NCBI GenBank assembly: GCA_028293745.1
Contig: JAQGOF010000241.1
Span: 1-64,000, forward strand
Length of the DNA stretch: 64,000 nt
DNA from: Gammaproteobacteria bacterium
GTDB taxonomy: Bacteria > Pseudomonadota > Gammaproteobacteria > Steroidobacterales > Steroidobacteraceae
Direction: 5' to 3'
Shown piece by piece: positions 4,195 to 62,125 of the stretch. A program made the translations under genes and the position numbers. The notes beneath the pieces were generated by a model. That model was not told the DNA's origin, did no database searches, and worked only from the letters and a program-made list of their open reading frames with translations. Within the stretch, counting starts at the first letter, position 1. Each line of letters begins with the position of its first letter.

Positions 4195-5562
4195 GTGAAG
4201 GATCTCACTCAAGGCCCCATCCCCAGGCAAGTGGTTGCGATGGCCGTTCCCATCTTCTTGGGAATGCTGTTCCAGACCCTGTACTTCCTCGTTGACCTCT
4301 ACTTCGTCGCGGGGTTGGGGGATGCGGCGCTGGCGGGCGTGGGCGCGGCGGGTAATGTGTCCATGGTCATCATCGCGCTCACGCAGATGCTGGGTGTGGG
4401 AACTGTGGCGCTCGTATCCCACGCGGCGGGAAGGAAGGACCAGGCGGAGGCCAACCTCATCTTCAATCAGTCCGTGCTGCTTTCGGCGATCCTGGGAGTT
4501 GTGACCCTCGTTGCGGGATATGGACTGACGAACTCGTACGTACATTCGTTGGCGGCCGATGAAGCGGCCGCGGCGGCGGGCATTGCGTATCTGTATTGGT
4601 ATCTGCCCGGACTTGCGCTGCAGTTTGCGATGGTCGCGATGGGCTCCGCGTTACGCGGCACGGGAATCGTCAAGCCAACCATGATGGTGCAAGTGCTCAC
4701 GGTCGTGCTGAACACCGTGTTTGCGCCGATCTTCATCGCCGGATGGGGCACCCATCATCCCTTCGGAGCGGCGGGCGCGGGCTTCGCAAGCACGCTCTCT
4801 ATCGCCATTGGCGTCGTATTTCTGTGGTTCTACTTCACCAGGCTCGAGCACTTCGTGGCGCTCAACCGGCGGCAATGGGCGCCCCACTTCGCAACCTGGA
4901 AACGCATACTGAATATCGGGCTGCCGGCCGGCGGCGAGATGCTGATGATCTTCGTGGTCGTCGCCGTCGTCTACTGGGCGATCCGGGGCTTCGGCCCCGC
5001 CACCCAGGCGGGGTTCGGGATTGCCCAGCGAGTGATGCAGGCGCTCTTCGTCCCCGTAATGGCTGTTGCCTTCGCGGCGGCGCCCGTCGCCGGGCAGAAT
5101 TTCGGCGCGGGTCACGCGGACCGTGTAAAGGAGACGTTTCGGGCCGCCGCCGCGATGAGCATAGCCCTCATGCTTGCGGACACGTTCCTGTGTCAGTGGC
5201 AAGCCGACTCTCTCATAAGGCTGTTCAGCGACGACCCGGCTGTCATTGCCGTGGGAGCGCCCTACCTGCAGATCCTCTCGTGGAACTTCGTTGCAACGGG
5301 CCTGGCGTTCACCTGTTCCAGCATGTTCCAAGCAATGGGTAACAGCTGGCCGTCGCTCATCAGTTCCGGCTCAAGAGTCATCACCTACGTGATACCCGCG
5401 ATCTGGTTAGGATCGCAAGGCCACTTCGAGCTGCGGCATCTGTGGTATCTCGCGCTAGTGACCGTGACGTTCCAGGCCGCGTTGAGCCTGATACTGCTGC
5501 AACAACAGTTCCGCCAGAGGCTGGGACCTAAGGTGCGTCCGCAAACAGCGGCAACGTCTTGA
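4195..5562 (+). CDS. MATE-family multidrug/antimicrobial exporter
   Basis: Inner-membrane cation-coupled exporter of 455 residues with the two-times-six helix organisation of MATE proteins. The start MKDLTQGPIPRQVVAMAVPI is the usual first segment of the family, which places initiation at GTG 4195 with GGAG at 4185-4188. The upstream open frame to 4033 is repeat sequence and is not needed. The internal repeat is visible as two similar halves, each beginning with an amphipathic stretch and a membrane helix (about 15-35 and 240-260). Substrates cannot be inferred. The last 35 bases overlap the 3' end of the convergent alpha-E gene. Confidence 0.92.
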   Translation: MKDLTQGPIPRQVVAMAVPIFLGMLFQTLYFLVDLYFVAGLGDAALAGVGAAGNVSMVIIALTQMLGVGTVALVSHAAGRKDQAEANLIFNQSVLLSAILGVVTLVAGYGLTNSYVHSLAADEAAAAAGIAYLYWYLPGLALQFAMVAMGSALRGTGIVKPTMMVQVLTVVLNTVFAPIFIAGWGTHHPFGAAGAGFASTLSIAIGVVFLWFYFTRLEHFVALNRRQWAPHFATWKRILNIGLPAGGEMLMIFVVVAVVYWAIRGFGPATQAGFGIAQRVMQALFVPVMAVAFAAAPVAGQNFGAGHADRVKETFRAAAAMSIALMLADTFLCQWQADSLIRLFSDDPAVIAVGAPYLQILSWNFVATGLAFTCSSMFQAMGNSWPSLISSGSRVITYVIPAIWLGSQGHFELRHLWYLALVTVTFQAALSLILLQQQFRQRLGPKVRPQTAATS

Positions 5563-6535
5563 CGCCATCGGACCATTGCACCTGGCGCATCGTCGGCGCG
5601 CCACCGCGCGATGGAAAGTACGTCTGCGCAATTCCGTCGTGCACGCCAATGATGTGCAGCTGCAGCCGATCGATCAGCTCATGCAGTCCGGGTAGATCGA
5701 GCGCTGCCATGTCGGCCTCGCCCATAAACCGGATGACACCGGCCAAGGCATCCAGGACCCCGGCGCTGCGCGGCAATGCCAACAGGCACTGCTCGATCTG
5801 CCTCAAGCTGAACACGCAGGCACGCGGGAACTGTTCGCCGCGCAACACGAATTCAAGAACGTCCGTGCGACTGACACGCGTGCGCCGGCTCAGACGATAC
5901 ATCTCGTACCCGGACAACGACTTGAGCACGCTCACCCATTGAATCGTGTCGAAAGGCCGGAGCTCGGGCGCGTCATCGGGTAGCAGTTGCGCCGACCGCA
6001 CATCGACGATGCGGCTCGTCATGTCCGCGCGCTCGACATTGCGGCCCAGCATCAGGAACGTATACGCATCATTGCGATTCATCGTTCCCTCGAGCGCACC
6101 GATGATCGTCTGTGATGTCTGCACGATCCGCTTGAGGAAGTTGAAACGGGTCCGCTTGTTGAGCCCCGTGGAGAGCTCTTCGATGAATTCGAGGAACGAC
6201 TGGTTCAGCAGCTCCCAGGCCTCGGTGGGAAGAATATCGCGCAGCGTGCGCGCATTCTCGCGGGCCCGCTTGAACGAAGACACGATGGAGCCGGGATTCT
6301 CCGGATCCGCGAGCAGAAACTGCACGATGTCACGCTCGTCGGCGCGACTGGCGGCGCGTGCATCGAACATTGCGCGGCTGCCCGTAATGTCGATCAGCGG
6401 CTGCCATCCGGGAGCCAGTCCCTTGGGCAGGTCCAGCAGCAGGTTGGTATTGACGCTTACGAGGCGTGCCGTATTCTCCACTCGCTCGATATAGCGCGCG
6501 AGCCAATACACGTTCTCAACTACTCTTGCGAGCAC
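5528..6535 (-). CDS. Alpha-E domain protein (stand-alone)
   Basis: An all-helical protein of 335 residues with the alpha-E domain signature at its start (MLARVVENVYWLARYIERVENTARL) and the later NRNDAYTFLMLGRNVERADMTSRIVD block. Alpha-E proteins accompany circularly permuted ATP-grasp enzymes and transglutaminase-fold proteins. Comparative genomics of amidoligase systems (Aravind and colleagues) predicted that they act together in peptide synthesis or modification, but no reaction is established to my knowledge. The gene lies 4 bases after the ATP-grasp gene and is surely co-transcribed with it. A second alpha-E domain is fused to an ATP-grasp at 11659-14148. Confidence 0.9.
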   Translation of the reverse strand: MLARVVENVYWLARYIERVENTARLVSVNTNLLLDLPKGLAPGWQPLIDITGSRAMFDARAASRADERDIVQFLLADPENPGSIVSSFKRARENARTLRDILPTEAWELLNQSFLEFIEELSTGLNKRTRFNFLKRIVQTSQTIIGALEGTMNRNDAYTFLMLGRNVERADMTSRIVDVRSAQLLPDDAPELRPFDTIQWVSVLKSLSGYEMYRLSRRTRVSRTDVLEFVLRGEQFPRACVFSLRQIEQCLLALPRSAGVLDALAGVIRFMGEADMAALDLPGLHELIDRLQLHIIGVHDGIAQTYFPSRGGAPTMRQVQWSDGVKTLPLFADAP

Positions 6536-6539
6536 TCTT

Positions 6540-7991
6540 TTACGCCTCGGTATCCACTATCCAGGTGTCCTTGCTACCGCCGCCTTGAGAGGAATTGACC
6601 ACCAGCGAGCCTTGCCGCAGCGCAACCCGAGTCAGTCCCCCGGTTGTTACGTACGTCTGCGGCCCACTCAGAATGAAAGGACGCAGATCGACGTGCCGCG
6701 GCTCGATCCGGTCACCTACAAACGTCGGAACCGTAGACAGCGTGATCACAGGCTGCGCAATGAAGCTTCTCGGGTCCGCTTTCAACTGCGCGGCAAACGA
6801 ATTGCGCTCACGCTGTGTGGACATGGGCCCCATGAGCATCCCGTAGCCGCCCGAGCCATCAACAGGCTTCACCACCAATGAATCCAGGTGGCCGAGAACG
6901 TGTTCGAGCTCCTTCTTGTCCCGACAACGCCAGGACGGCACGTTGGGAAGAATGGGCGCCTCGTCCAGGTAGTACTTGATCATGTCGGGGACGTACGTGT
7001 AGACGAGTTTGTCGTCAGCCACGCCCGCGCCTGGTGCATTTGCGAGCGCGACGTTGCCGCTGGCCCACGCGCGCATGAGTCCTGGGACTCCCAGCGACGA
7101 ATCCGACCGGAATACTTCCGGATCGAGGAAGTCATCATCGATGCGCCGATAGATCACATCCACCCGTGTCCAGCCACGAATGGTCTGCATGTACACGCAA
7201 TCGTCTTCGTGCACCGCGAGATCGCGCCCCTCCACGAGCTCGCAACCCATCTGCCTCGCCAGAAACGCATGTTCGAAATAAGCTGAGTTGTAGATGCCCG
7301 GCGTCAGCACCACAACCTCCGGCTGACGTTCGTGCCGGGATGACAATGCAACCAGCATGTCATGCAGCTGCGAGGGATAGTCATCGACCGGAAGGATGGC
7401 GGCGCTTTCGAACAACTCCGGAAACACCCGCTTCACGACCTGCCGGTTTTCGATCATGTACGAGACGCCGGAAGGAACCCGCAGATTGTCTTCCAGCACG
7501 TAGACGGTGCCGTCCTTGTCGCGCACCAGGTCGCTGCCGCAGATGTGCGCCCAGCAGCCGCCTGGCGGCTTGACACCAACACACTCGGACCGGAAATTCT
7601 TCGAAGTGGAGATGACCTCCTTCGGAAAGAGGCCGTCGGCGACCATGCGCTGCTCGTGGTAGACATCATCGATGAAGAGGTTCAGGGCCGCGACGCGCTG
7701 CTTCAGCCCCTTTTCGATCTTCGCCCATTCCTTGCGGGTGATCGTCCGCGGGATGATGTCCAGCGGCCATGCCCGGTCGATGGAGCCTTCCTGCTCGTGG
7801 TACACGGTGAACGTAATACCCATTGCCTTGATCGCAAGCTCTGCAGCCTGCTGGCGTACCCCGATTTCCTCCCCACCCAGCTCCGACAGATAGCGCATCA
7901 GGGCCCTGCCCGCGGCGCGGGCGCCACCACTCGGGCCGACGAGCTCATCGTGCTGGCCAGGAGCGCTATAGGTGTTCCAATCGATGCTCAT
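6540..7991 (-). CDS. Circularly permuted type-2 ATP-grasp protein (stand-alone)
   Basis: Predicted ATP-dependent carboxylate-amine ligase of 483 residues. Visible family blocks are DDDFLDPEVFRSDSSLGVPGL, the nucleotide-binding lysine and glycine-rich loop VVKPVDGSGGYGMLMGP, and the C-terminal QGGGSKDTWIV. I place the start at ATG 7991 (MSIDWNTYS), where family homology begins. The open frame extends to 8156 but that part is non-homologous. No clear Shine-Dalgarno precedes 7991. It is the first gene of a two-gene operon with alpha-E, divergent across about 200 bases from the DUF2126 transglutaminase. Unlike the fused paralogue it keeps the intact glycine-rich loop, so it is the more likely ATP-active enzyme. 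Confidence 0.92.
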   Translation of the reverse strand: MSIDWNTYSAPGQHDELVGPSGGARAAGRALMRYLSELGGEEIGVRQQAAELAIKAMGITFTVYHEQEGSIDRAWPLDIIPRTITRKEWAKIEKGLKQRVAALNLFIDDVYHEQRMVADGLFPKEVISTSKNFRSECVGVKPPGGCWAHICGSDLVRDKDGTVYVLEDNLRVPSGVSYMIENRQVVKRVFPELFESAAILPVDDYPSQLHDMLVALSSRHERQPEVVVLTPGIYNSAYFEHAFLARQMGCELVEGRDLAVHEDDCVYMQTIRGWTRVDVIYRRIDDDFLDPEVFRSDSSLGVPGLMRAWASGNVALANAPGAGVADDKLVYTYVPDMIKYYLDEAPILPNVPSWRCRDKKELEHVLGHLDSLVVKPVDGSGGYGMLMGPMSTQRERNSFAAQLKADPRSFIAQPVITLSTVPTFVGDRIEPRHVDLRPFILSGPQTYVTTGGLTRVALRQGSLVVNSSQGGGSKDTWIVDTEA

Positions 7992-8194
7992 TGGAGAGGC
8001 ATTTGGGTCGGGGCGACGCGCTGAACATACCAGTGCGTGAGCGTGACTTTCAAACACGGCATGAATTTGCCACGTTATGGTGCTACCGGCGCGGGCTGCG
8101 GTCCAATTTGGTGCGCAAGAGTGGGAGGATCCTCCCCGTATAATGTAGTGAGCCAAGAACGCAAAACCGCCGCCATATCGCGCGGGAGGTCTCT

Positions 8195-11100
8195 TTGTCG
8201 ATTCACGTTGCTCTCCATCACGTCACCCACTATCGGTACGACCGGCTGGTCAGCCTCGGTCCGCAGATAGTGCGGTTGCGCCCCGCGCCGCATTGCCGCA
8301 CCCGCATCCTCGGATATTCCCTGAGCGTGCAGCCGGAGAAACATTTCATCAACTGGCAGCAGGATCCACAGGCCAACTATCTCGCGCGGCTCACCTTCCC
8401 TGACAAAACCCGCGAGCTGCGGATCGAAATCGATCTCGTCGCCGAGATGGCGGTATTCAACCCGTTCGATTTCTTTCTCGAGCCCTACGCGCAACAGTTT
8501 CCGTTCAAGTACGAGGCGGGTGAGCAACGCGAGCTCGCTCCGTACCTGACAACATTGCCCGTGACACCGCGGCTGGCGGACTACCTAGAATCAATTCCGC
8601 GCGAGCAAACCAGGACAACAGACTTCCTCGTCGAGCTGAACATGCGCTTGTCCCGGGACATCCGCTACCTGATCCGCATGGAGCCTGGCGTTCAGGCCCC
8701 GGAGGCCACCCTGGGATCCGCGTCCGGATCCTGCCGCGACTCGAGTTGGCTGCTGGCGCAGCTTCTGCGCCATCTGGGACTGGCTACCCGCTTCGTGTCG
8801 GGTTATCTCATCCAACTCACACCCGATGTCAAATCGCTCGATGGGCCGTCCGGTCCCACGGCAGACTTCACTGATTTACATGCCTGGTGCGAGGTGTATT
8901 TGCCGGGTGCCGGCTGGATTGGCCTCGATCCCACCTCAGGCCTGCTGGCTGGCGAAGGCCACATTCCTCTCGCGTGTACGCCGGAACCTTCCACGGCCGC
9001 CCCCGTCAGCGGCCTGGTCGAGGAATCCGAGGTCGAATTCGAGCACACCATGAAGGTGGAGCGCGTCTGGGAAGCGCCGCGCGTCACCAAACCCTACACG
9101 GAGGAACAGTGGACCCAGGTGGAGAAGCTGGGGCATGAAATCGACGCCGGCCTGGCGGCGCTGGATGTCCGTCTCACCATGGGTGGCGAGCCGACATTCG
9201 TCTCGATCGACGATCCGGATGGCGAGGAATGGAACACGGCGGCGTTGGGCCCGGATAAACGCCGCCTGTCGATCGATCTGTACAAACGCCTGAAAGACGA
9301 ATACGCCCCCACCGGTCTGGCCCACTTCGGTCAGGGTAAGTGGTACCCGGGAGAGCCGCTGCCCCGCTGGTCACTCAACTGCTACTGGCGCCGCGACGGC
9401 GAACCCATCTGGCAGACCCCCGAACTGTTTGCAGATGAGAAATCCAGCTCTGGCGCAAGCCACGACACCGCCCAACGCTTTCTCAGGGACGTTGCAACGC
9501 GTCTCGGACTGTCGCCCACGTTCGTGTTTGCAGCCTACGAAGACGCCTTTTACTACATGTGGCGCGAGCAGCGGCTGCCATCAAACGTGGATCCGTTCGA
9601 ATCGCGGCTCGAGAACGCCGGCGAGCGTACCCGGCTGATGAAAATCTTCGAGCGCGGACTCGATCGGCCTTCGGGTTATGTTTTCCCAGTATCGCGGGAC
9701 CCGGCAGGCCCGCGGTGGCAGACGGGCCCGTGGTTCCTACGCCAGGAGCGGTGCTACCTCGTACCCGGAGACTCGCCGATCGGACTTCGCTTGCCGCTCG
9801 AATCGTTGCCGTGGGCAGTGCCCGGTGACGTCAACCAGATATTTCCGCCCGATCCAACGCAGACGTTTCCGCAACTCGCTTCGTACGCGGAAATTCGCCA
9901 GCAACTGCGCGACTCCGCGCCGTCACCTCTAGCCACGCCCGGACCAGCGACTCGGGGCGTGTCAACCACCGACCTCGGTCCAACGAGCCGGGGTGCGCCA
10001 GACGCCGACCTCCATCCAACCGGCTGGCCGCCCGATGGCGGTGAGGCACCGGCAGGCACTGAAGGACCCGCTGGTGGCGCGCCGGACGCAGCCGCACACC
10101 GAGCCGCTGTCGATCCAACACGTGCACCACACTTGCGTGAATCGGCGGGCTGGATCACGCGCACCGCCATGTGTGCCGAGGCACGCAATGGCACGCTGTA
10201 CGTGTTCATGCCGCCTACCCTCCACCTCGAGGACTACCTGGAACTGGTTGCGGCCATCGAAGCCACTGCAGCACGCTTGTCACAGCCAATCATCCTCGAA
10301 GGTTACGAGCCACCCCGGGACCCGCGGCTCAACAGCTTCCGCATCACACCCGATCCCGGCGTGGTGGAGGTCAACGTCCACCCATCGGCAAACTGGGACG
10401 AGCTCGTCAAGCGAACGACTCACTTGTACGAACAGGCGCGGCTGTCACGGCTCACGAGCGAGAAGTTCATGCTGGATGGCCGCCACACCGGAACGGGCGG
10501 TGGCAACCACTTCGTTCTGGGAGGCGCAACCACAGGCGATTCGCCGTTTCTGCGCCGCCCGGATCTGTTGCGCAGCTTGCTCGCCTATTGGCATAACCAT
10601 CCGAGCCTGTCGTACCTGTTCTCCGGCCTGTTCATCGGCCCCACATCCCAGGCGCCTCGAACGGACGAGGCGCGCAATGATTCGCTGTACGAACTGGAGC
10701 TCGCCTTCAAGGAGCTGCCGCCGCCGGGCCAGGACTGTCCTGCCTGGCTCGCCGACCGGGTGTTCCGCAACCTGCTGACCGATGTCACGGGTAACACGCA
10801 CCGCGCCGAATTCTGCATCGACAAGTTGTATTCGCCGGATGGGCCGACCGGCCGGCTGGGCTTGCTGGAGTTGCGCGCATTCGAAATGCCACCCCATGAG
10901 CGGATGAGTCTCACGCAACAACTTCTGTTGAGATCGCTCGTCGCGCGTTTCTGGCGCACACCCTACACACCTCCCCGGCTGGCACGCTGGGGAACCGAGC
11001 TGCACGACCGTTTCATGCTGCCCTTTTTCGTCGAGCGGGATTTCGCCGACGTCATCGAGGAACAGAGAGCGGCGGGCTTCCCGCTGCGCAAGGACTGGTT

Positions 11101-11662
11101 CGCGCCGCATTTCGAGTTCCGCTTCCCCAAGTTCGGCCAGTTCGCCACGCCGGGAGTCGAAATCGAGCTGCGGCAGGCGCTCGAGCCGTGGCACGTCATG
11201 GGAGAAGAAGGGGCACCCGGGGGAGCCGTGCGGTTCGTGGATTCCTCCGTCGAGCGGCTGCAGGTCAAGGCAACAGGTCTTGCGCCCGACCGCTATGCGA
11301 TCGCGTGCAACGGCCGGAGGGTTCCGCTGCGCCCGACGGGCACGGTGGGTGAATTCGTAGCCGGTGTGCGCTACAAGGCGTGGCAGCCGGCATCCTCCCT
11401 TCATCCGACCAAGGGCGTTGACTCGCCGCTGACCTTCGACTTGGTGGACACCTGGATGAACCGCTCGCTGGGTGGTTGTCAGTATCACGTAATGCATCCG
11501 GGTGGCCGCAGCTACGCGACCTTCCCGGTGAATGCCTTCGAGTCGGAAAGCAGGCGCCTCGCACGTTTCTTCAGAATGGGCCACACTCCGGGCACAATCA
11601 GCGCGCCGCCCGAGGCTGCCAGTCCCGAGTTCCCCTTTACGCTGGATCTGCGAGCCACTTGA
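8195..11662 (+). CDS. Transglutaminase-fold / DUF2126 large protein
   Basis: A 1155-residue protein. The N-terminal half-domain (about 1-130) is the bacterial transglutaminase-like N region. The papain-like core follows with a complete triad: Cys180 in ASGSCRDSS, His229 in DLHAW, Asp245 in GLDPTSG. DUF2126 fills the rest (about 300-1155) with blocks such as DVRLTMGGEPTFVSIDDPDG and GRHTGTGGGNHFVLGG. A Pro/Ala/Gly-rich low-complexity linker interrupts it at about 576-652. Translation starts at TTG 8195 with GGGAGG just upstream. The stop overlaps the start of the fused ATP-grasp/alpha-E gene (TTGA). It probably cleaves or forms an amide bond in the same pathway as the ATP-grasp enzymes. Confidence 0.92.
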   Translation: MSIHVALHHVTHYRYDRLVSLGPQIVRLRPAPHCRTRILGYSLSVQPEKHFINWQQDPQANYLARLTFPDKTRELRIEIDLVAEMAVFNPFDFFLEPYAQQFPFKYEAGEQRELAPYLTTLPVTPRLADYLESIPREQTRTTDFLVELNMRLSRDIRYLIRMEPGVQAPEATLGSASGSCRDSSWLLAQLLRHLGLATRFVSGYLIQLTPDVKSLDGPSGPTADFTDLHAWCEVYLPGAGWIGLDPTSGLLAGEGHIPLACTPEPSTAAPVSGLVEESEVEFEHTMKVERVWEAPRVTKPYTEEQWTQVEKLGHEIDAGLAALDVRLTMGGEPTFVSIDDPDGEEWNTAALGPDKRRLSIDLYKRLKDEYAPTGLAHFGQGKWYPGEPLPRWSLNCYWRRDGEPIWQTPELFADEKSSSGASHDTAQRFLRDVATRLGLSPTFVFAAYEDAFYYMWREQRLPSNVDPFESRLENAGERTRLMKIFERGLDRPSGYVFPVSRDPAGPRWQTGPWFLRQERCYLVPGDSPIGLRLPLESLPWAVPGDVNQIFPPDPTQTFPQLASYAEIRQQLRDSAPSPLATPGPATRGVSTTDLGPTSRGAPDADLHPTGWPPDGGEAPAGTEGPAGGAPDAAAHRAAVDPTRAPHLRESAGWITRTAMCAEARNGTLYVFMPPTLHLEDYLELVAAIEATAARLSQPIILEGYEPPRDPRLNSFRITPDPGVVEVNVHPSANWDELVKRTTHLYEQARLSRLTSEKFMLDGRHTGTGGGNHFVLGGATTGDSPFLRRPDLLRSLLAYWHNHPSLSYLFSGLFIGPTSQAPRTDEARNDSLYELELAFKELPPPGQDCPAWLADRVFRNLLTDVTGNTHRAEFCIDKLYSPDGPTGRLGLLELRAFEMPPHERMSLTQQLLLRSLVARFWRTPYTPPRLARWGTELHDRFMLPFFVERDFADVIEEQRAAGFPLRKDWFAPHFEFRFPKFGQFATPGVEIELRQALEPWHVMGEEGAPGGAVRFVDSSVERLQVKATGLAPDRYAIACNGRRVPLRPTGTVGEFVAGVRYKAWQPASSLHPTKGVDSPLTFDLVDTWMNRSLGGCQYHVMHPGGRSYATFPVNAFESESRRLARFFRMGHTPGTISAPPEAASPEFPFTLDLRAT

Positions 11663-14148
11663 CCGAACCCAACCCCAAAGTCAAACCCTCGACGCTGACC
11701 GCAGGCACTGTCACCCCAGGCTCGCTTGCGGCATACGTCCCGGACGCGCGGCGCTATGACGAGCTGCTCGATGACAAGGGGTTGGTGAGGCCGCACTGGC
11801 AGCCGTTGATTGACCAGTTGACCCGCGATGACGCGCGGGCAGTCGCCCGGCGCGGATTGGAGCGGACACGGCGGCTGATCGTCGAAAACGGCGTGACCTA
11901 CAACGTCTACGCCGATCCGCAGGGAGCGGACAGGCCCTGGGCTCTCGACCCCGTGCCACTATTGCTGCTCGCGGAGGAATGGCGCGAGATGGAAGCTGGC
12001 CTGGCACAACGCGCGCGGCTGATCGATGCTCTCCTGGCCGATATCTATGGTCCGCAGCGCCTGCTCTGCGAGGGGCTCGTGCCTCCCGAGCTCGTGTTCG
12101 GACATCCGAACTACCTGTGGCCGTGTCAGGGCATCGTGCCGCGCGGTAGAAATTGGCTCCACGTCTACGCTGCCGATCTTGCACGGGCGCCCGACGGCCG
12201 CTGGTGGTTGCTTGCAGACCGTACCCAGGCCCCCTCCGGGGCGGGCTACGCCCTGGAGAACCGCGAGATTGTCGAGCAGGTGCTGCCGCAGGCCATCCGC
12301 CAGCTCGAAGTGCGGCGTACGACCGGCGTTTTCAGCGAATTGCGCGAGCAGTTGCTGAGTCACGGCGACGAAGGCGAGAACCCACTCGCCGTGATCCTCA
12401 CTCCCGGCCCATTCAACGAAACCTATTTCGAGCACGCTTACCTCTCGAGACAACTGGGCGTGCCGCTCGCTGAAGGGACCGATCTCACGGTCCGTGACGA
12501 CACCGTGTACCTCAAGACGCTCGCAGGATTGAAGCGTGTACACACCATCCTGCGGCGGCTCGATGACGACTTCTGCGATCCCCTCGAGCTGCGCAGCGAT
12601 TCGACACTCGGTATACCCGGCCTGCTGGGCGCCGTCCGCGCAAACAGAGTGGTCATGGCGAACGCCCTGGGGACAGGTGTGCTCGAGTCCGCGGCATGGC
12701 TGGGATTTCTGCCGCGCATTGCCGAGCGGCTGCTGGGTGAAAAGCTCTCGTTGCCGTCGGTAGCAACCTGGTGGTGCGGTGAAAAACCGGCGTTGGATTA
12801 CGTGTTGGCCCATCTGGACAAGCTGGTCATCAAGCCCACGTATCCCAACCAGCGGTTCGAGCCCGTATTTGGCCACAATCTCGGAGGAGAGGCACGCAAA
12901 AGGGTCATTCAGCGGCTGCGCGCGCGCCCGTATGCGTATGTGGCCCAGGAGCATCTGTCTCTTTCGCAAACGCCCATATGGCGGCCCCACGGAGCACTGG
13001 GGTTTGCCGCGACGCCCGTGTCAATCCGCATGTACGCAGTTGCAGGACTTTCGGGCACCCGTGTCATGCCGGGCGGTCTCGCGCGTGTTGCCGCGGATGC
13101 AACGATTGATGTTGTATCCACTCAGCGCGGAGGTGGAAGCAAGGACATCTGGGTGCTTCCGGACTCCTCCGAAGACACCGTGGCGGTGGGAACCTCGAGG
13201 AGCCCAGGTGCACAGGTGAGGCACGATGACATCCCGTCGCGCCTGGTAGAGAACCTGTACTGGTTCGGCAGGTATACCGTCCGTTGTGAAGACAAGGCGC
13301 GTCTGTTGCGGGGAACTCTCACAGCTCGTTCCGACGAAGGTGTTTGGAACGCCGCTGTCAAGTTCTGCCGGGATCTCGGAGTCATCTCGATTGACGGCGA
13401 CCCGGCGCTCAGTTTGGACGACCGCAACCCACAGGGCGTCGTGGCCGATGTCAGGAGACTGGCGTGGTGCGCCTCGCAGGTCCGCACACGCCTGTCGGCA
13501 AGTTATTGGCGCGCCGTGAACGAAATGCAGCGACGGCTGCAGGATTCGGTAGCGGCTCGCGAGGAGCCCAGGGCGGCGTTGGATCAGCTGCTGCTGTCCC
13601 TTGCAGCACTTGCGGGCTTCGCATTTGACGACATGACCCAGGATGAAGGTTGGCGGCTGCTTCGCGTGGGACGGCGGCTCGAGCGGCTGCAGTTCGCAGC
13701 CGGCCTCCTGGCACAACATCTGGGCTCTGAATGGGCCACGCGGCAGTCGCATGTCGAATGGCTTCTCGAAGCATACGACAGCACGAGGATCTATCGATCG
13801 CGGTACGTCGTAGCGCCGCGCCTGGGACCGATGCTGGATTTGCTCGTCCGCGATTCCGAGCACCCGCGCGCGCTTGCGTTTCAATGGCGCGCCATCGCCC
13901 GTGATCTGGAGATTCTCGCGACCTCGCTCGGGATCACCGGCGAACTGGGCCTGGACGAAGCCATCCCCCAACTCACCGATGCGAAGCTGATGGCCCTCGA
14001 ATCCGACGGCGCCGACGCCGTTCAGGCGCGCCAGTCGATGGCCGAGCGGCTCCGCGCTCTGAGCTGGGCGGCCGGCCAGTTGTCGGATCGGTTGTCCCTG
14101 CGGCACTTTTCGCACATAGCGCTCGACGCGCAGGCATTGGCAACATGA
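11659..14148 (+). CDS. Circularly permuted ATP-grasp fused to alpha-E domain
   Basis: An 829-residue fusion. Residues about 30-510 are a type-2 circularly permuted ATP-grasp (DDDFCDPLELRSDSTLGIPGL; RGGGSKDIWVL near 490). Residues about 525-829 are an alpha-E domain beginning SRLVENLYWFGRYTVRCEDKARL. Where the stand-alone paralogue has VDGSGGYG, this protein has YPNQRFEPVFG, so the glycine-rich nucleotide loop is replaced. I believe this is typical of the fused subfamily. The proposed start is TTG 11659, overlapping the preceding stop. The open frame upstream to 11476 lies inside the DUF2126 gene and is non-homologous. It overlaps the next gene by ATGA. Confidence 0.88.
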   Translation: MTEPNPKVKPSTLTAGTVTPGSLAAYVPDARRYDELLDDKGLVRPHWQPLIDQLTRDDARAVARRGLERTRRLIVENGVTYNVYADPQGADRPWALDPVPLLLLAEEWREMEAGLAQRARLIDALLADIYGPQRLLCEGLVPPELVFGHPNYLWPCQGIVPRGRNWLHVYAADLARAPDGRWWLLADRTQAPSGAGYALENREIVEQVLPQAIRQLEVRRTTGVFSELREQLLSHGDEGENPLAVILTPGPFNETYFEHAYLSRQLGVPLAEGTDLTVRDDTVYLKTLAGLKRVHTILRRLDDDFCDPLELRSDSTLGIPGLLGAVRANRVVMANALGTGVLESAAWLGFLPRIAERLLGEKLSLPSVATWWCGEKPALDYVLAHLDKLVIKPTYPNQRFEPVFGHNLGGEARKRVIQRLRARPYAYVAQEHLSLSQTPIWRPHGALGFAATPVSIRMYAVAGLSGTRVMPGGLARVAADATIDVVSTQRGGGSKDIWVLPDSSEDTVAVGTSRSPGAQVRHDDIPSRLVENLYWFGRYTVRCEDKARLLRGTLTARSDEGVWNAAVKFCRDLGVISIDGDPALSLDDRNPQGVVADVRRLAWCASQVRTRLSASYWRAVNEMQRRLQDSVAAREEPRAALDQLLLSLAALAGFAFDDMTQDEGWRLLRVGRRLERLQFAAGLLAQHLGSEWATRQSHVEWLLEAYDSTRIYRSRYVVAPRLGPMLDLLVRDSEHPRALAFQWRAIARDLEILATSLGITGELGLDEAIPQLTDAKLMALESDGADAVQARQSMAERLRALSWAAGQLSDRLSLRHFSHIALDAQALAT

Positions 14149-15041
14149 GAGGCAGCGTTCGCTACCGCATTCGCCACGAAACCACGTATGCGTACCGCAA
14201 CGATGTCGTCCATTCTCATCAGCTCCTGCACCTCGTTCCGCGACCAACCGCTTATCAACAATGCCAGGAGCACGTGATCAACGTGACTCCCGCGTTCTAT
14301 CGCAAGCGGAACGAAATCGACACCTTCGGCAATCTCGTGACCCGCGTCGAGTTCGATCACCCGCATCGCCGGCTCGAAGTGGCCACCGACATGGAGGTTG
14401 AAGTCCATCCGCGCCCCGCGGTGGATGCGGCAGACAGTTTTTCGTGGGAGCGCGCGGCAGCCGAGCTCAACTATCGCAACTCGGATCCGGCGCGGGAGAG
14501 CCTCGAAGCGTGCCGCTTCCGGCACGAATCCCCGTACGTCCGGATCAAGAGACAGTTCAACGAGTACGCCGCCGAGTGTTTCACCAAGGGCCGGCCGGTC
14601 CTTGCCTGTGCCGAAGAGCTGATGAGGAAGCTGCACAAGGATTTTCGCTATGCGCCCGGTGAAACGACGATCTCCACACCGCTGATGGAAGTGCTCAAGA
14701 ATCGTCGTGGCGTCTGTCAGGACTTTTCACATCTGATGATTGCCTGCCTGCGTGCTCGCGGGCTCGCAGCACGCTATGTCAGCGGGTACATTCGCCAAGT
14801 GCCGGCCAGCCCCGATGCGCTCGTCGGTTGGGGTGCATCCCACGCGTGGGTTGCCGTCTACGCGCCGCCCTTCGGCTGGTTCGAGCTCGACCCGACGAAC
14901 GGCATGTTCGTCGGTACAGACCACATCTCCGTGGCGTGGGGCCGGGATTTTGGGGATGTCTCGCCATTGCGAGGCATCATCCTGGGGGGCGGGAGTCACC
15001 GCCTGTCGGTCGGTGTGAAGGTCGAGGTTATTCCGTCGTGA
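14145..15041 (+). CDS. Transglutaminase-family protein (second)
   Basis: A 298-residue protein with the bacterial transglutaminase N domain (about 1-90: YRIRHETTYAYRNDVVHSHQLLHLVPR) and a catalytic core with Cys191 (GVCQDFSH), His233 (SHAWV) and Asp249 (ELDPTNG). It is probably a soluble cytoplasmic cysteine peptidase/amidase, as no signal peptide is seen. The ATG overlaps the preceding stop (ATGA), tying it translationally to the fused ATP-grasp/alpha-E protein. Its last 14 bases overlap the end of the convergent third transglutaminase gene. Confidence 0.92.
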   Translation: MRGSVRYRIRHETTYAYRNDVVHSHQLLHLVPRPTAYQQCQEHVINVTPAFYRKRNEIDTFGNLVTRVEFDHPHRRLEVATDMEVEVHPRPAVDAADSFSWERAAAELNYRNSDPARESLEACRFRHESPYVRIKRQFNEYAAECFTKGRPVLACAEELMRKLHKDFRYAPGETTISTPLMEVLKNRRGVCQDFSHLMIACLRARGLAARYVSGYIRQVPASPDALVGWGASHAWVAVYAPPFGWFELDPTNGMFVGTDHISVAWGRDFGDVSPLRGIILGGGSHRLSVGVKVEVIPS

Positions 15042-15903
15042 CGGTCACCTCTACCGACATCGACACGAAGTCCTCTTTCTCGCCCTTGTAGCTGCCCGCC
15101 AGCGGAACGGCCTGCGAAGGATCGCGGGCCACCGCGACCCGGATGAGATTGTGTCCACCCACGAGCGCATTGGTCGGGTCGAATTCGATCCACCCCGCCC
15201 CGGGCAGGAACACTTGCAGCCAGGCGTGGGTCGCGCCGCCGCCTACCAATGCACCATCACCGACCAGCATCTCATCGTATAGATAACCAGAGACGAATCG
15301 CGCTGCGAGCCCGAGACTGCGAGCAGCTTCCATCATGAATAGAGCGAAATCACGACAGCTCCCCGTCTGCGACTCCAGCGTTTCCAGGGGTGTCTGGACG
15401 CCCACTTCCTCCCGGGCCGCGTATTTGAATTCCTTGCGGATGGTGGAAGCCATTTCGGTCAGCACATCGAGCGTGCGCGCTCCGGGTGTCCTGGCGACGA
15501 TTCCTTTCGCCCATTCGTCCACCAGGTGTTGCGGGTCCTGGTAGTGCCGTTCCTTGGTGCGGCCGAGGTCCATTGCATCCTCGACCGAGTAGCTGAACGG
15601 AAACTGGGACGCGTAAGACTCGACGACGATCGCGCGCCGCGCCGCCGGATAGTGCTCTGCCCAAAATCCAGAATCGAAGGTCAATGATTCCCCCGGCTCG
15701 TCGAAGGTTGCAATGGCAATGGAATTGCCGAACACATCATGTATCCACCTGAGTGAGCTCGCCGGCGGATCGATCGACAGCGACGTGTCGATCAGCCGCA
15801 GGTCGTGACTGTCACGCGGGCGGGACATCAGCCGATGCTCGCCGAACTCGACTGCATGTTTGTACAGGTATGTGGTTCGGTGCTGAATGTGGAGGATCGC
15901 CAT
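15028..15903 (-). CDS. Transglutaminase-family protein (third)
   Basis: A 291-residue paralogue with Cys183 (GSCRDFALF), His226 (THAWL) and Asp242 (EFDPTNAL). It starts MAILHIQHRTTYLY, the family N-terminus, from ATG 15903 with AGCAGG upstream. An in-frame ATG at 15921 would overlap the DUF2252 gene. The open frame to 16254 is a shadow of DUF2252. It diverges in its middle from the 14145 gene (DAMDLGRTKERHYQDPQ), so the two are not a recent duplication. It follows DUF2252 with a 2-base gap and is probably co-expressed with it. Confidence 0.9.
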   Translation of the reverse strand: MAILHIQHRTTYLYKHAVEFGEHRLMSRPRDSHDLRLIDTSLSIDPPASSLRWIHDVFGNSIAIATFDEPGESLTFDSGFWAEHYPAARRAIVVESYASQFPFSYSVEDAMDLGRTKERHYQDPQHLVDEWAKGIVARTPGARTLDVLTEMASTIRKEFKYAAREEVGVQTPLETLESQTGSCRDFALFMMEAARSLGLAARFVSGYLYDEMLVGDGALVGGGATHAWLQVFLPGAGWIEFDPTNALVGGHNLIRVAVARDPSQAVPLAGSYKGEKEDFVSMSVEVTVTTE

Positions 15904-15905
15904 GC

Positions 15906-16979
15906 TTACCTGCTGCGCCATTCGCGCCAGTCCTGGACCGTCGCCTCGCGCATGCGGCGCGCCGCCGCGCTCAGCCAACCCTCGGGTCTGTTGCGAAGGT
16001 CGCTCAGAATAGCCTTTCGCGCGCGTGGGCTGCCCAGATGCACATTGCCGGTCTCCCAACCCATCATACGCAACAGTTTGCACTCGTCCTGGACGCCGGT
16101 CAGATGGACCAGTTCGATGCGGCTGCAGTCGGGAGCCAACCGCCGCACCACCCAACCCTCGTGTACCTGCAGAAACGGATCGGCAACCCGCACGGCGCGG
16201 CTGATGATCCGCGAATACTGCACGGGTTCGGCGCGCGCGTCCCGGAACCACCACAACGCAGACGTCGTCAGCGCCTTAGCCTCGCGGGCGATAGTTCCAC
16301 CACGCCAGTGGGCCAGCGCAGTGAACCGTTGGCGCCCGAGACTTCCCATCCCAGCCTGGCGATGAAGAATCCGGAACGGGAGTCGAGGCTCCGGCATCGC
16401 TCTTTGCAGCAAGCGCCGCTCCGCGGCTGCCAGCCGTGCAGGGTCCCGCTCGAGCGCCAGTAACTTCTGCCAGTAGCTGCGCTGCTCCTTCAGACGGCCA
16501 ACCGCAAGGTCGCGCAACCAGCGATTGCGCTCTGCGAGTACCAGGGGCATTCCCCCGTCTCGCAGCGAGTCCGTATAGCCCTCCAGGACAGAATCGCAGG
16601 CACGCCGCGCTGGCGTGGCAAGGCGCGACTCGCCGATCGCGATCAAGGCGCTCGTGCAAAGGCGAACGAGGTCGTTGGTATACGCAACGGTGGCCGCCTC
16701 GTCGAAGTCGTTAATTCCCCAGACCAGCCGGCCTTCACCGTCGCGCCACGTTCCAAAGTTCTCAACGTGCAGATCGCCAACGCCCAGAACATTGGGCGCC
16801 GCCGTAAGCTCGCTGCAGAGCTCCGGCCATACCTGGGCCCAACGACAGAAGGATCCTCGCAGGAAGGAGAACGGATCCTGCGCCATGCGACGGTGTTTGA
16901 GCTGCAGATCGCGCTTGACGATGCGCAGACGTTGCTCGAGCCAGCGATCGTACGCCTGGGTCGATTCGACGACGTTCAT
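15906..16979 (-). CDS. DUF2252 family protein (kinase-like fold)
   Basis: A 357-residue protein with the DUF2252 blocks RMAQDPFSFLRGSFCRWAQVW near the start, GVGDLHVENFGTWRDGEGRLVWGINDFDEAATVAYTNDLVRL in the N-terminal half, and KLLRMMGWETGNVHLGS late. GDLHxxNF followed by NDFD recalls the catalytic and metal-binding motifs of the aminoglycoside-phosphotransferase/protein-kinase-like fold. A phosphotransfer role is therefore plausible but unproven. It heads a two-gene unit with the third transglutaminase and starts 45 bases from the divergent Na+/H+ antiporter. Confidence 0.88.
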   Translation of the reverse strand: MNVVESTQAYDRWLEQRLRIVKRDLQLKHRRMAQDPFSFLRGSFCRWAQVWPELCSELTAAPNVLGVGDLHVENFGTWRDGEGRLVWGINDFDEAATVAYTNDLVRLCTSALIAIGESRLATPARRACDSVLEGYTDSLRDGGMPLVLAERNRWLRDLAVGRLKEQRSYWQKLLALERDPARLAAAERRLLQRAMPEPRLPFRILHRQAGMGSLGRQRFTALAHWRGGTIAREAKALTTSALWWFRDARAEPVQYSRIISRAVRVADPFLQVHEGWVVRRLAPDCSRIELVHLTGVQDECKLLRMMGWETGNVHLGSPRARKAILSDLRNRPEGWLSAAARRMREATVQDWREWRSR

Positions 16980-18700: not shown

Positions 18701-20857
18701 ATGTCAGGATTCGTCCAGGCTCTGGATTCGTACCGGAATGGAACACTGTCCAGAGATGAGCTGCTTGCAGAAATAGAGCGGCAGCTGGCGAGCGGCGAAG
18801 CCGACTCCAGTACGTTGCTCGCTGCTCTGAACAATGAACAGGCCCGGGAGCGCCTGCCCGGCAATATCCACATCGAGATCGTCCGCAAGCTGCTGCGCCG
18901 CCGCGAGAGCCCGGCCCCCCAGCTCGCCGGGCTGCGGGCGCCGCAGATTGTTGCATTGCAACTGCGTGACGACGAGGCCGCCACAGTCCTCGTGGATAAT
19001 TCCGGCGGCCGGCCACAGATGGCGCCGCTGCCGCGGCGCAAGGCGTTCATCTCTGTTGGAATGGTGCTGCACAACCGCTTCCGGCTCATCGAGCCGATCG
19101 GCGAAGGCGGCATGAGCACCGTGTACAAGGCGATCGATCTGCGCAAAGTGGAAGCGCGGGCGAGCGAAACGCACGTCGCCGTGAAGCTGCTGACCGTTCC
19201 GCTGAGCGACTTCACCGAATCGCTGGCTGTGTTGCAAAGAGAAGCGCACAAGCTGCAGACGCTTCCGCACCCGAACATCGTGCGCGTCATCGACTGCGAC
19301 CGTGACGGCCGCACGGTGTTCATGACCATGGAGTATCTGAGCGGCGAATCGCTCAAGCGCAAACTGGCATCGCCCGACCTCAAGGGCCTGCCCGCGAAGG
19401 ACGCCGAACACATCCTTACGTGCATCGCGAGCGGCCTGGCATTTGCGCATGGCAACGGCATCGTCCATGGCGACCTGAAACCCGGCAACGTGTTGGTGAC
19501 TGACAACGGCGATGTCAAGATCATCGATTTTGGCATTGCGCGTCTCATGACGCGCCATCCGCGTGCTGCTGGTGTCAACAGCGACGAGCGGCCGCGGCTG
19601 AGCGCCCTGACGCCGCCCTACGCAAGTCCGGAGATGTTGGAGAATGCGGAAGCTGATCCCCGGGATGACATCTATGCGCTTGCCTGCATTGCGCATGAGC
19701 TGTTGACGGGACGGCATCCTTTCGATCGCATGGTGGCGAACGAAGCGCGCGACAGCGGCATGAAGCTGCTGCGCCGCGGCTCGATGTCCGCCGCACAATT
19801 CAGGGCAATTGCGCGCGGTCTGGAATTCGACCGCGAAAAACGCACGCCGAGCGTCGAGCGTTTCATGGAGGAATTCACTGCCGGCACCGGCATACGAGGC
19901 GATCACATGGCAGCGCTCGTCGGGCTCGCGGTGCTGGCACTGCTGCTCGCGGCTTATTTCCTCGACCGGGCTCGAATCGAGAGCTGGCTCGCCGCCCATC
20001 GCGCACCGGGCCTCGTGCTCCCGAACCAGGGTGAAGTCTTTCGGGATTGCCCCACCTGTCCGTTGATGAAGGCACTACCGCCCGGAGTTTTCGCACAAGG
20101 TGCCGCGGACTCCCAGGCGGACGCCACGTCAATCGAAAAACCACAGCATGCAGTCAAGATCAACTACCCGTTAGGTGTGGGGGTATACGAGATCACCGTC
20201 GCAGAGTTCAGAGAATTCGCCAATGCCACGAACCACAAGAGCGCGGGCTGTCAGTTGTACAACGGCACGTGGCAGGCTAGCTCCGAGCTCAACTGGAACA
20301 ACGTCGGGTACATCCAGACTGCGACGCACCCGGTGGCCTGTGTGTCGTGGCGGGATGCGCGCGAGTACGCTGCGTGGATTTCTCACAAGACGGGCCAGCG
20401 ATATCGGCTTCCCAGCGACTCGGAATGGGAGTACGCGGCCCGGGCTGGCTCGGCAGCCCCTCGCCCATGGAACACCAACGTCCAGGCAGCCTGCACTGAC
20501 GCCAACGTCGCGGACCAGACAGCCGCGCAACAGTATCCAGGATGGAAGGTCCATCCTTGCAGCGACGGCTACATCTACTCGTCACCGGTCGGATCATTCC
20601 AGCCCAACGAATTCGGGCTGTACGACATGCTCGGGAATGTCTTCGAGTGGGTAGAGGACTGTTGGCATCCGGACTATCACGGCGCTCCCAGTAACGGCTC
20701 CGCGTGGCTGGACGGGGACTGTAGCCAGCGCGACATGCGTGGCGGCTCGTGGTTCACCGCTCCCTCTCTGGTGAGCGCATCCGCACGCAACCGGTTCGAG
20801 GACACCTACCGAAGCAACAGTGTTGGATTCCGGCTCGTACGGGAGATTCCAGAATGA
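18701..20857 (+). CDS. Ser/Thr protein kinase fused to a formylglycine-generating-enzyme-like (SUMF1) domain
   Basis: A 718-residue membrane protein in three parts. The first is an N-terminal regulatory stretch (1-120). The second is a Hanks-type kinase (about 125-395) with P-loop GEGGMS at 134-139, Lys162, HGDLKPGN catalytic loop (Asp258; HGD in place of HRD) and DFG at 276-278. A single membrane helix at 403-421 is followed by a periplasmic FGE-like domain (about 440-718). The FGE domain keeps the fold signatures YRLPSDSEWEYAARAG, GLYDMLGNVFEWVED and MRGGSWF. At the place where true FGE has its paired catalytic cysteines it reads GGSWFTAPSLVSASARNR. It is therefore unlikely to oxidise cysteine to formylglycine and may act as a sensor. 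The stop overlaps the next gene. Confidence 0.92.
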   Translation: MSGFVQALDSYRNGTLSRDELLAEIERQLASGEADSSTLLAALNNEQARERLPGNIHIEIVRKLLRRRESPAPQLAGLRAPQIVALQLRDDEAATVLVDNSGGRPQMAPLPRRKAFISVGMVLHNRFRLIEPIGEGGMSTVYKAIDLRKVEARASETHVAVKLLTVPLSDFTESLAVLQREAHKLQTLPHPNIVRVIDCDRDGRTVFMTMEYLSGESLKRKLASPDLKGLPAKDAEHILTCIASGLAFAHGNGIVHGDLKPGNVLVTDNGDVKIIDFGIARLMTRHPRAAGVNSDERPRLSALTPPYASPEMLENAEADPRDDIYALACIAHELLTGRHPFDRMVANEARDSGMKLLRRGSMSAAQFRAIARGLEFDREKRTPSVERFMEEFTAGTGIRGDHMAALVGLAVLALLLAAYFLDRARIESWLAAHRAPGLVLPNQGEVFRDCPTCPLMKALPPGVFAQGAADSQADATSIEKPQHAVKINYPLGVGVYEITVAEFREFANATNHKSAGCQLYNGTWQASSELNWNNVGYIQTATHPVACVSWRDAREYAAWISHKTGQRYRLPSDSEWEYAARAGSAAPRPWNTNVQAACTDANVADQTAAQQYPGWKVHPCSDGYIYSSPVGSFQPNEFGLYDMLGNVFEWVEDCWHPDYHGAPSNGSAWLDGDCSQRDMRGGSWFTAPSLVSASARNRFEDTYRSNSVGFRLVREIPE

Positions 20858-21609: not shown

Positions 21610-22557
21610 ATGAGGCTGGGTTCTTGGCGGCAGTCGCATGAAGGCAGGCGGTTCATGAGGGCAGGCGCAGGTCTGGCAGGGGCACGTCTGCCAGGAGCAC
21701 ATCTGGCAGCTGCGTTGGCGGCGCTTCTGCTCACCCTCGAGAGCGCGCCCGCGGCTGCGCAAGCTGACGCCCACGCGCGAGCCCTGGCACGAGCTGCCTG
21801 CCAAAGCGGTAAACAGTCAGAAGCCGTGACGGACGCAGAGGCGGCACTGGAACGCGATCCGAATGAGCTCGGACCTCGAATGCGGCTGGCCGACGCGCTG
21901 GTGGACCAAGGATGCTACCAGGAAGCTGTGGATGTCCTCGAGGCCGCCCAGCAGGCACGTCCCCGCAACAGCGAGCTGTCAGGCAAGCTCCGCAACGTAC
22001 GCAGCCTGGTGACCGAGCAAACCTACATCGAGGGTCTCACACAAGCCGCAGAGGGTGCGAAGCTCCAGCGGAATCAACTCCGCTGCACACGGCTGGCAGA
22101 TGTAACAGCCTGCGATGACGCCTTGAGATCCAAGCCCGACGATGAGCAGCTACTAATTGCAAAGGGCGACGCCCTCATGCAAGTAAATCACCCGGCAGAT
22201 GCAGCGGCGGCCTACCGGCACGCATCGCAGCTGAAACCCGGTGATGATGCGCTGAAAACCAAACTCGCCGCCGCCGAAACGCTCCAAGCAAGCGCCGCCC
22301 AGCCTGCCGAGAGCACTTCGCAGCTCGCCGCCGCAGATACCCCCGCAGTGCCACGACCGCCCAAGCGAACACCCGCGGCGACCGGTGTCGCGACCGCAGG
22401 CCCTACTGCGACCGCGGGCTCCACCGCGCACTCGCGCCCGGCCGCGACCAAAACCACAGCCTCAACATCAGCAACGCCGCTAGCGACAGTCGCAGCCCTC
22501 GAGCCGCAAGAGACGCGCACGTACTCAAACGAAGCCCCCCCAGGGCGAACCAACTAA
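21610..22557 (+). CDS. TPR-containing exported protein with low-complexity tail
   Basis: A 315-residue protein. A signal-like hydrophobic segment (LAAALAALLLTLESAPAAAQA, beginning near residue 32) is followed by TPR-like helical repeats (about 55-220), recognisable in AVTDAEAALERDPNELGPRMRLADALVDQG and ADAAAAYRHASQLKPGDDALKTKLA. The last 80 residues are Ala/Thr/Pro low complexity. The start is either ATG 21610 or ATG 21655, and the shorter form gives a more normal signal peptide. It is the third gene of the kinase unit, 18 bases after the lipoprotein, and probably scaffolds a periplasmic complex. Confidence 0.72.
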   Translation: MRLGSWRQSHEGRRFMRAGAGLAGARLPGAHLAAALAALLLTLESAPAAAQADAHARALARAACQSGKQSEAVTDAEAALERDPNELGPRMRLADALVDQGCYQEAVDVLEAAQQARPRNSELSGKLRNVRSLVTEQTYIEGLTQAAEGAKLQRNQLRCTRLADVTACDDALRSKPDDEQLLIAKGDALMQVNHPADAAAAYRHASQLKPGDDALKTKLAAAETLQASAAQPAESTSQLAAADTPAVPRPPKRTPAATGVATAGPTATAGSTAHSRPAATKTTASTSATPLATVAALEPQETRTYSNEAPPGRTN

Positions 22558-61117: not shown

Positions 61118-62125
61118 GTGGTTCGCACAAGATCTAAGCTCGGCTTTGTGCCGAACGTACTTCCATCGCAGAGCAGCATCGTGGCCAACATCCTGGCGCA
61201 GGCTCATGCCAGACGCCGCCGCCGCTGTCGCGTTGTTGAACGGCCGCATCAGCCGGTGCCATTCATCGTGGGCTCGCCCCGCTCAGGTACGACGCTTCTC
61301 AGGTTGATGTTGGATTCGCATCCCCAGCTCGCGATTCCCCCGGAGACCGGCTTTTTGCCGCGGGCACTCGTGTCACTGTTCGGCAACGACGAGCGGCAGC
61401 GGCAGTCCTTTGGTGCGGCTCTCATCAACTTCCCGCCGGAAGCGTCCGGCTGGCGGGATTTCGGCATCGAGCCCGATGCGTTCATGAGCGAGCTGCGGAC
61501 GATCACCCCTTTCCACGTCGATGAAGCAATCCGCTGCTTCTATCGAATGTATGCCGCGCGCTTCGCAAAGGATCGCTGGGGTGACAAGACCCCCACGTAT
61601 GGCAGACACATGCGTGCGATCGAACAAGTGCTGCCGGAGGCCTGCTTCATACATATCATTCGGGACGGCCGCGATGTCGCTCTGTCACTTCGTGACGTTT
61701 GGTTCGCTCCGGGCAAGGATATGACGACGCTCGCGCGGCAGTGGCGCCGGGACATCTGCGCAACACGCCGGCAATCCCTGGGCTGCAGGCACTACCTGGA
61801 GTTGCGGTACGAGTCGCTCGTGCTCGATCCGGAAACCTGTCTGCGAGATATTTGCGACTTCATCGAGATCGACTACGATCCCGCAATGAAGGACTACCAT
61901 CGCCGCGCGGCCGCGCGCCTGCTCGAGCAGCAGGCCCCTACGCTCGCGAGCGGGACGGTTCTGGTCACTCAGCATGAGAGGCTGGCACAGCAGCGGCTCA
62001 CCATGTGCCCACCGGACCCGTCGCGCATATTTCGCTGGCGCCAGGCAATGCTGGCCAGCGAGCGCGCCGAGTATGAAGCGGTCGCTGGCGGTCTGTTGGC
62101 GGCCTTGGATTACCCCTGCATCTAG
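61118..62125 (+). CDS. Sulfotransferase family protein
   Basis: A 335-residue sulfotransferase with PAPS-binding VPFIVGSPRSGTTLLRLMLDSHP near residue 50 and the 3'-phosphate region around FIHIIRDGRDVALSLRDVWF. It lacks TPR repeats, unlike the 29522 protein. Translation may begin at GTG 61118 or GTG 61148, and the first 40 residues are not homologous, so the start is uncertain. It is about 95 bases after the nitrilase-like gene. Confidence 0.85.
   Translation: MVRTRSKLGFVPNVLPSQSSIVANILAQAHARRRRRCRVVERPHQPVPFIVGSPRSGTTLLRLMLDSHPQLAIPPETGFLPRALVSLFGNDERQRQSFGAALINFPPEASGWRDFGIEPDAFMSELRTITPFHVDEAIRCFYRMYAARFAKDRWGDKTPTYGRHMRAIEQVLPEACFIHIIRDGRDVALSLRDVWFAPGKDMTTLARQWRRDICATRRQSLGCRHYLELRYESLVLDPETCLRDICDFIEIDYDPAMKDYHRRAAARLLEQQAPTLASGTVLVTQHERLAQQRLTMCPPDPSRIFRWRQAMLASERAEYEAVAGGLLAALDYPCI

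Follow-up and report, generated by a model that had tools for sequence, protein, structure and literature searches.

The first 64,000 nucleotides of contig JAQGOF010000241.1, from a Steroidobacteraceae genome of the Gammaproteobacteria (assembly GCA_028293745.1), contain a locus of seven genes in which a split and a fused version of an ATP-grasp/Alpha-E pair lie side by side; this whole stretch is referred to below as the window. The two circularly permuted ATP-grasps of the locus are not equivalent. The stand-alone protein, CP1, is predicted to be catalytically live, and the ATP-grasp part of the fused protein, CP2, is predicted to be a pseudoenzyme with a conserved non-catalytic role. With about even confidence, we read the locus as a merged form of the Alpha-E/ATP-grasp/transglutaminase amide-ligase system, linked to nitrogen stress in relatives, in which CP1 is the one live ATP-grasp, DUF2126 probably a second ligase and CP2 their pseudo-ATP-grasp partner. 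Should this hold, assays on the fused ATP-grasp would be looking for the wrong activity.

CP1 (open reading frame 6540..8156, minus strand; probable ATG start near 7991) matches PF14403/PF04174 (E 5e-167). The fused CP2–Alpha-E protein (open reading frame 11476..14148, plus strand) matches PF14403, PF04174 and PF04168 (E 5e-149 for the ATP-grasp and 4e-52 for the Alpha-E part); its frame overlaps the preceding gene at the start, and the putative true start lies at ~11.66–11.71 kb. A solved homologue, 3n6x, is matched by CP1 at E 5e-156 and by the fused protein at E 4e-80. The residues compared here are those that bind ATP and metal in the ATP-grasp fold in general. In an alignment of CP1 with 27 relatives, Glu222, Asp223, Asn224, Arg226, Lys430, the GGYG loop, His488, Asp490 and Arg492 are kept wherever a letter exists (gaps and one X aside). 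A larger set, in which the window and some genomes occur more than once, has the full signature in 60/72, and 10 of the remaining 12 are incomplete sequences. The corresponding alignment of CP2 (82 relatives and the window, n = 83) gives a different picture. Glu222 is kept in none of the 83, being Ala in the window, and Asn224 is replaced by Arg in 81, the window included. The GGYG loop is found in 0/83, with two of its three glycines remaining in three sequences, and His488 and Asp490 never occur together (0/83). A larger, partly redundant set agrees, with Glu in 0/90 and Arg at the Asn position in 87/90, one of the remainder being a gap. CP1 has the magnesium-binding Glu/Asn and the glycine-rich loop by which ATP-grasp membership is judged, and CP2 lacks them. 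CP2 is nevertheless conserved, and is therefore predicted to be a pseudoenzyme; it does not decay at random, because Gly232 and Glu348, which are typical of CP2 and not found in CP1, are fixed in 83/83. In the literature searched, by titles and passages, we recognised no description of this residue loss, which may still be in print.

A different reading of the same residues is that CP2 is retooled rather than dead, with a changed site that is under selection for other chemistry or another cofactor. The near-fixed Arg224 (81/83), Gly232 and Glu348, together with Arg492, would fit such a site, but they are equally compatible with a role in binding only; moreover, the usual metal ligands are gone and the loop is variable. 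We consider a retooled active site unlikely, and less likely than a pseudoenzyme. In a separate arrangement, the genomes G022 (L184) and G008 (L185/L186) combine two split ATP-grasp/Alpha-E sets with a transglutaminase–DUF2126 gene, and one ATP-grasp there has a degraded loop (GAEG).

The candidate for the second ligase is found in the largest protein of the locus (8195..11662, plus strand; 1155 residues), which begins with a transglutaminase-fold domain (residues 1 to ~250; PF08379, PF01841) and continues as DUF2126 (276–1153; PF09899, 1324 bits), labelled a putative amidoligase in Pfam. The initial annotation counted it among three transglutaminase-fold proteins; the domains are confirmed, but DUF2126, three quarters of this protein, had been overlooked, as had the residue loss in the fused ATP-grasp. 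The AlphaFold model of DUF2126 has a pLDDT (predicted local distance difference test) of 73. Among 297 Foldseek matches to it, the top five are of the YbdK or glutamine-synthetase type, none of them reaching E 0.001; the best is YbdK (E 0.0098, probability 0.98), and the Pup enzyme Dop is present at low rank (E 0.94). Conserved DUF2126 columns are present across 53 sequences. A sequence search of the PDB with DUF2126 gave no match, and the family is named in no paper of the literature searched. A GS/GCS-type ligase is thus a weakly supported assignment for DUF2126.

The stand-alone Alpha-E (5528..6535, minus strand; PF04168, 287 bits, E 2e-85) has an all-helical AlphaFold model (pLDDT 86.9) without a PDB fold match at E 0.001. 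A conserved ER motif was found in Alpha-E, the residues of which are mostly kept in stand-alone and fused versions alike; the fused Alpha-E of the window has Val at the first Glu of the motif. A Cys-His-Asp triad, seen already in the initial annotation, is present in all three transglutaminase-fold domains of the window and recurs in relatives. In the DUF2126-linked domains of relatives, Cys and His are found in 79/80 and Asp in 79/80; in stand-alone domains, such as that of TG2, the partner of the fused set (14145..15041, plus strand; PF08379/PF01841), the counts are 76/77 and 75/77, the rest being gaps in both groups.

The two sets are linked across genomes. A query with the DUF2126 protein against one genome per species returned 475 related stretches; the 80 best served as loci and were searched with the window proteins. 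Where at least 4.5 kb lay downstream (68 loci), a CP2-type ATP-grasp was found in 66 and a stand-alone transglutaminase likewise in 66, both upstream instead in L066. Sixty-five loci extend 4.5 kb or more upstream, and 21 of these have the split ATP-grasp/Alpha-E pair no further than 10 kb from the fused set. The remaining 44 lack an adjoining split pair; the genomes of 33 of these were tested, and each of them gave two or more Alpha-E matches (the second weak in G566). In 30 of the 33 a stand-alone Alpha-E was retrieved that adjoins a CP1-type ATP-grasp, a count that leaves out the other three. An even draw across the phylum (397 genomes besides the own genome) contained 119 DUF2126-positive genomes, all with Alpha-E. 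At least two Alpha-E matches were found in 110/119 of these versus 12/278 of the others (Fisher value 3e-72, which overstates the evidence as the genomes are related). Alpha-E occurs without DUF2126 in 92 genomes and DUF2126 without Alpha-E in none of the 119, and the dependency of DUF2126 on Alpha-E is one-sided. Closer to the window the distribution is patchy. Four genomes of the same family have both sets, and one of them, G193, shares the divergent layout; among 11 genomes drawn from the same genus, DUF2126 is found in none and Alpha-E in one. Patchy inheritance, transfer or binning could explain the distribution in the genus. The same-genus assemblies measure 2.8–4.7 Mb versus 6.9 Mb for that of the window.

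The connection to nitrogen comes from relatives. Upstream regions were scanned for the sigma-54 consensus with a score out of 10, and 1600 random windows from the same loci served as controls. Sites scoring at least 8 precede DUF2126-type genes in 54 of 78 loci, compared with 180 of the 1600 controls, the loci not being independent because many are from Paraburkholderia; the corresponding counts are 15/24 before CP1, 14/72 before TG2 and 4/75 before CP2. Many of the sites sit 51–57 bases upstream. In the available part of a study of Burkholderia cenocepacia, the cluster I35_5080-5083 is NtrC- and sigma-54-dependent, and its expression falls 6 to 9.4-fold when ntrC is mutated (PMC5491218). In Pseudomonas putida, PP_2686-2688 are up 11 to 37-fold under nitrogen limitation in three strains and PP_2685 is up 1.1 to 4.8, according to the accessible portion of PMC7801951; induction of this Anbu operon under nitrogen limitation is also reported in the part of PMC8050072 at hand.

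Anbu is a proteasome-like protein, and the own genome has two Proteasome-family matches. The first adjoins a frame recognised as HslU, and we take it to be HslV. The second, on contig C133 (L097), is Anbu and scores as high as 309 bits against solved Anbu chains. It adjoins a reading frame that resembles a zinc metallopeptidase, and it is on a contig other than both Alpha-E genes (the window is contig C144), hence not in the same operon. Anbu was found in 19/30 DUF2126-positive genomes, 21/30 genomes with Alpha-E only and 0/20 genomes with neither, several of the latter being small or incomplete and most classed by absence from the positive listings. In G642 (C38) and G701 (C121), the coordinates place it about 0.9 kb away from DUF2126.

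These elements can be arranged in a tentative mechanism. First, CP1 would form an acyl phosphate from a carboxylate and ATP and couple it to an amine, with Alpha-E as a helical partner. We infer this reaction because CP1 has the ATP-grasp fold, with its residues in place, and because a homologous ATP-grasp releases phosphate from ATP in the available part of PMC6376114. Second, DUF2126, probably a ligase of the GS/GCS fold and joined in one protein to a cysteine enzyme of the transglutaminase fold, may make a second amide bond. Third, CP2–Alpha-E, having lost its catalytic residues, would no longer be an ATP-grasp catalyst and might act on DUF2126 or CP1 by binding or regulation. Finally, TG2 and the DUF2126-linked transglutaminase-fold domain, as putative peptidases or amidases, could trim or recycle the product together with the unlinked Anbu. 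The product itself would be either a peptide or a modification of proteins. A second step of ligation may thus exist in the locus, but DUF2126, not CP2, would supply it.

Several observations weigh against this reading. CP2 retains Asp223 in 50/83, Lys430 in 47/83 and Arg492 in 82/83, the window among those with the Lys and the Arg, such that some nucleotide contact may survive. The fold match of DUF2126 is weak (TM 0.17/0.36, at the E value and pLDDT given above), and the 80 loci are a best-scoring selection from 475, with many from Paraburkholderia. A single Alpha-E is found in 9/119 DUF2126-positive genomes. Three of these were looked at: G620 (L188) and G918 (L189/L190) each show a canonical split ATP-grasp/Alpha-E without a CP2 in the retrieved stretches, and in G645 (L191) the DUF2126 gene alone was found in the retrieved stretch; CP2 is therefore not strictly needed. 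The two split sets of G008 and G022 likewise come with no fused protein found. In the window, the best sigma-54 score is 6/10 before DUF2126 and 8/10 before CP1, the latter a value also reached by 180 of the 1600 controls. One of the three P. putida strains showing the rise was an rpoN mutant (PMC7801951, in the portion available), which argues against simple sigma-54 dependence in that organism. With regard to Anbu, it was not found in 11/30 DUF2126 genomes, and the available part of PMC6376114 describes assays with neither peptidase activity nor a stable complex.

One possibility is that the system serves protein tagging and turnover, in which the amidoligases add a tag, and under nitrogen starvation Anbu, together with the transglutaminase-fold enzymes, takes it off or degrades it. 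The occurrence of Anbu solely in Alpha-E genomes (40/60 versus 0/20, several of the 20 being small or incomplete), its proximity to DUF2126 in G642 and G701, the low-ranking match to Dop and the induction under nitrogen limitation are in line with this. The two Anbu findings just given, from the assays and from the 11 genomes, speak against it, and no tag gene turned up, though none was searched for; we regard tagging as an unlikely, minority reading. A more speculative extension, which we consider doubtful, is a widespread tagging or peptide system for nitrogen starvation in which the pseudo-ATP-grasp–Alpha-E would control the GS-fold DUF2126 or present substrate to it, with the live ATP-grasp and Anbu, as a counterpart of pupylation made from different parts.

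The initial annotation proposed two parallel, fully active ligase sets that carry out two steps or serve two pathways, and tied this to the sets occurring together and to intact catalytic residues. The sets do occur together in most DUF2126 genomes. The parallel view is helped further by the Alpha-E ER-motif residues mostly kept in both versions, by the intact transglutaminase triads and by the Lys430 and Arg492 that CP2 retains. The catalytic residues are lost from the fused half, however: neither the metal-binding Glu nor the GGYG loop is found in any of the 83 CP2 sequences, and the Asn is changed to Arg in 81. The linkage thus stands and the equivalence does not, which leaves two fully active sets improbable.

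On the 3´ side of the locus, TG3 (15028..~15909, minus strand; profile match, start at GTG 15909 or ATG 15903) and a DUF2252 protein (15906..16979, minus strand; PF10009, matching the first third of the profile at E 1e-33) are probably chance neighbours or recent recruits and not system members, contrary to their initial inclusion. A single pathway of all seven genes is very improbable. In its favour, the TG3 start and the DUF2252 stop are a few bases apart on one strand, which may mean co-translation of the two, and on plasmid L134 about 15 kb separate a TG3-type gene from a distant DUF2252. Against it, the DUF2252 of the window was found in 0/80 loci (phmmer at 1e-5, which distant forms could escape), no gene of the system occurs within about 9 kb of three same-genus homologues (55–58%), and the five plasmid homologues viewed adjoin other, unrelated genes. 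No further DUF2252 homologue appeared at E 1e-30 in 369 genomes drawn from the class, and nothing relevant in the PDB. A frameshift or chimera in the DUF2252 gene was ruled out, since it is a single open frame without internal stop, of which the profile matches the first third alone. The protein and eight homologues share the motif GDxHxEN.GTWRD...ND.D, followed later by GxGSxGRxR...RExK. This order resembles the catalytic loop of aminoglycoside kinases placed before the nucleotide loop, possibly as in a circularly permuted kinase; a Pfam scan of the protein gave no kinase match. TG3 is one of a family of lone transglutaminases, against which it scores 310–328 bits; as a candidate for the missing transglutaminase of an Anbu operon it was rejected, since the transglutaminases next to split-type Alpha-E gave 29–113 bits where scored. 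The lone TG3-type transglutaminases at L132 8974–9798 and L134 20928–21803 are each followed by a very diverged transglutaminase-like frame (30–33 bits).

All seven genes are real and were placed correctly, as confirmed by the open reading frame listing, Pfam scans and translation. Their order is Alpha-E (-), CP1 (-), the divergent transglutaminase–DUF2126 (+), CP2–Alpha-E (+), TG2 (+), and the convergent TG3 (-) and DUF2252 (-). The profile search showed Pfam families matched in all seven proteins, and NCBIfam has no model that matches any of them. The assembly is a draft of 259 contigs (6.9 Mb, 91% complete), and the three Bact_transglu_N proteins found in it are all inside this locus. Further along the window, a protein kinase domain fused to a formylglycine-generating-enzyme (FGE-sulfatase) domain (18701–20857) is followed by a TPR protein (21610–22557). 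There are also two sulfotransferase genes (29522–31567 and 61118–62125), one with a long TPR array and then a TonB-dependent receptor.

In conclusion, profile matches and the neighbourhood survey bear out membership of the locus in the amidoligase/Alpha-E/transglutaminase association, the founding prediction of which was reportedly made by Iyer in 2009, as later papers cite it. The suggestion of a new biological system does not hold, as the association was predicted then according to those papers, and its Anbu-operon form has published expression and biochemistry in the literature accessible to us. As an analogy from general knowledge, a GS-related ligase fold with a proteasome-like protein resembles Pup ligase and the proteasome; here the ligase families are others, ATP-grasp and Alpha-E are involved, and no Pup-like tag turned up, none having been searched for. 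The Anbu operon (Anbu, transglutaminase, Alpha-E and ATP-grasp; P. putida PP_2685-2688) has the same pair of Alpha-E and canonical circularly permuted ATP-grasp, and the own genome encodes Anbu. In the present case, however, the Anbu gene sits on a separate contig, and the Alpha-E/ATP-grasp pair lacks a transglutaminase after it and adjoins the DUF2126/fused set. B. cenocepacia I35_5080-5083 brings together an ATP-grasp (DUF404/407), Alpha-E (DUF403), a transglutaminase and a large transglutaminase-domain protein; its genes, as listed in the available part of PMC5491218, do not include a fused protein, and NtrC control was shown there, whereas the window has no clear site. The locus also resembles the DUF2126 loci of Pseudomonas, Paraburkholderia, Verrucomicrobia and others, with transglutaminase–DUF2126, fused ATP-grasp/Alpha-E and TG2 usually in that order and the split pair adjoining in a third of loci, divergent in some as in the window; TG3 and DUF2252 on the 3´ flank are extra to the window. 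We place the locus within this known and widespread association, with split and fused sets merged. Its value lies in the contrast of a live with a predicted-dead ATP-grasp, the genome-wide co-occurrence and the nitrogen context, which together offer a testable division of labour and a growth condition in which to study it.

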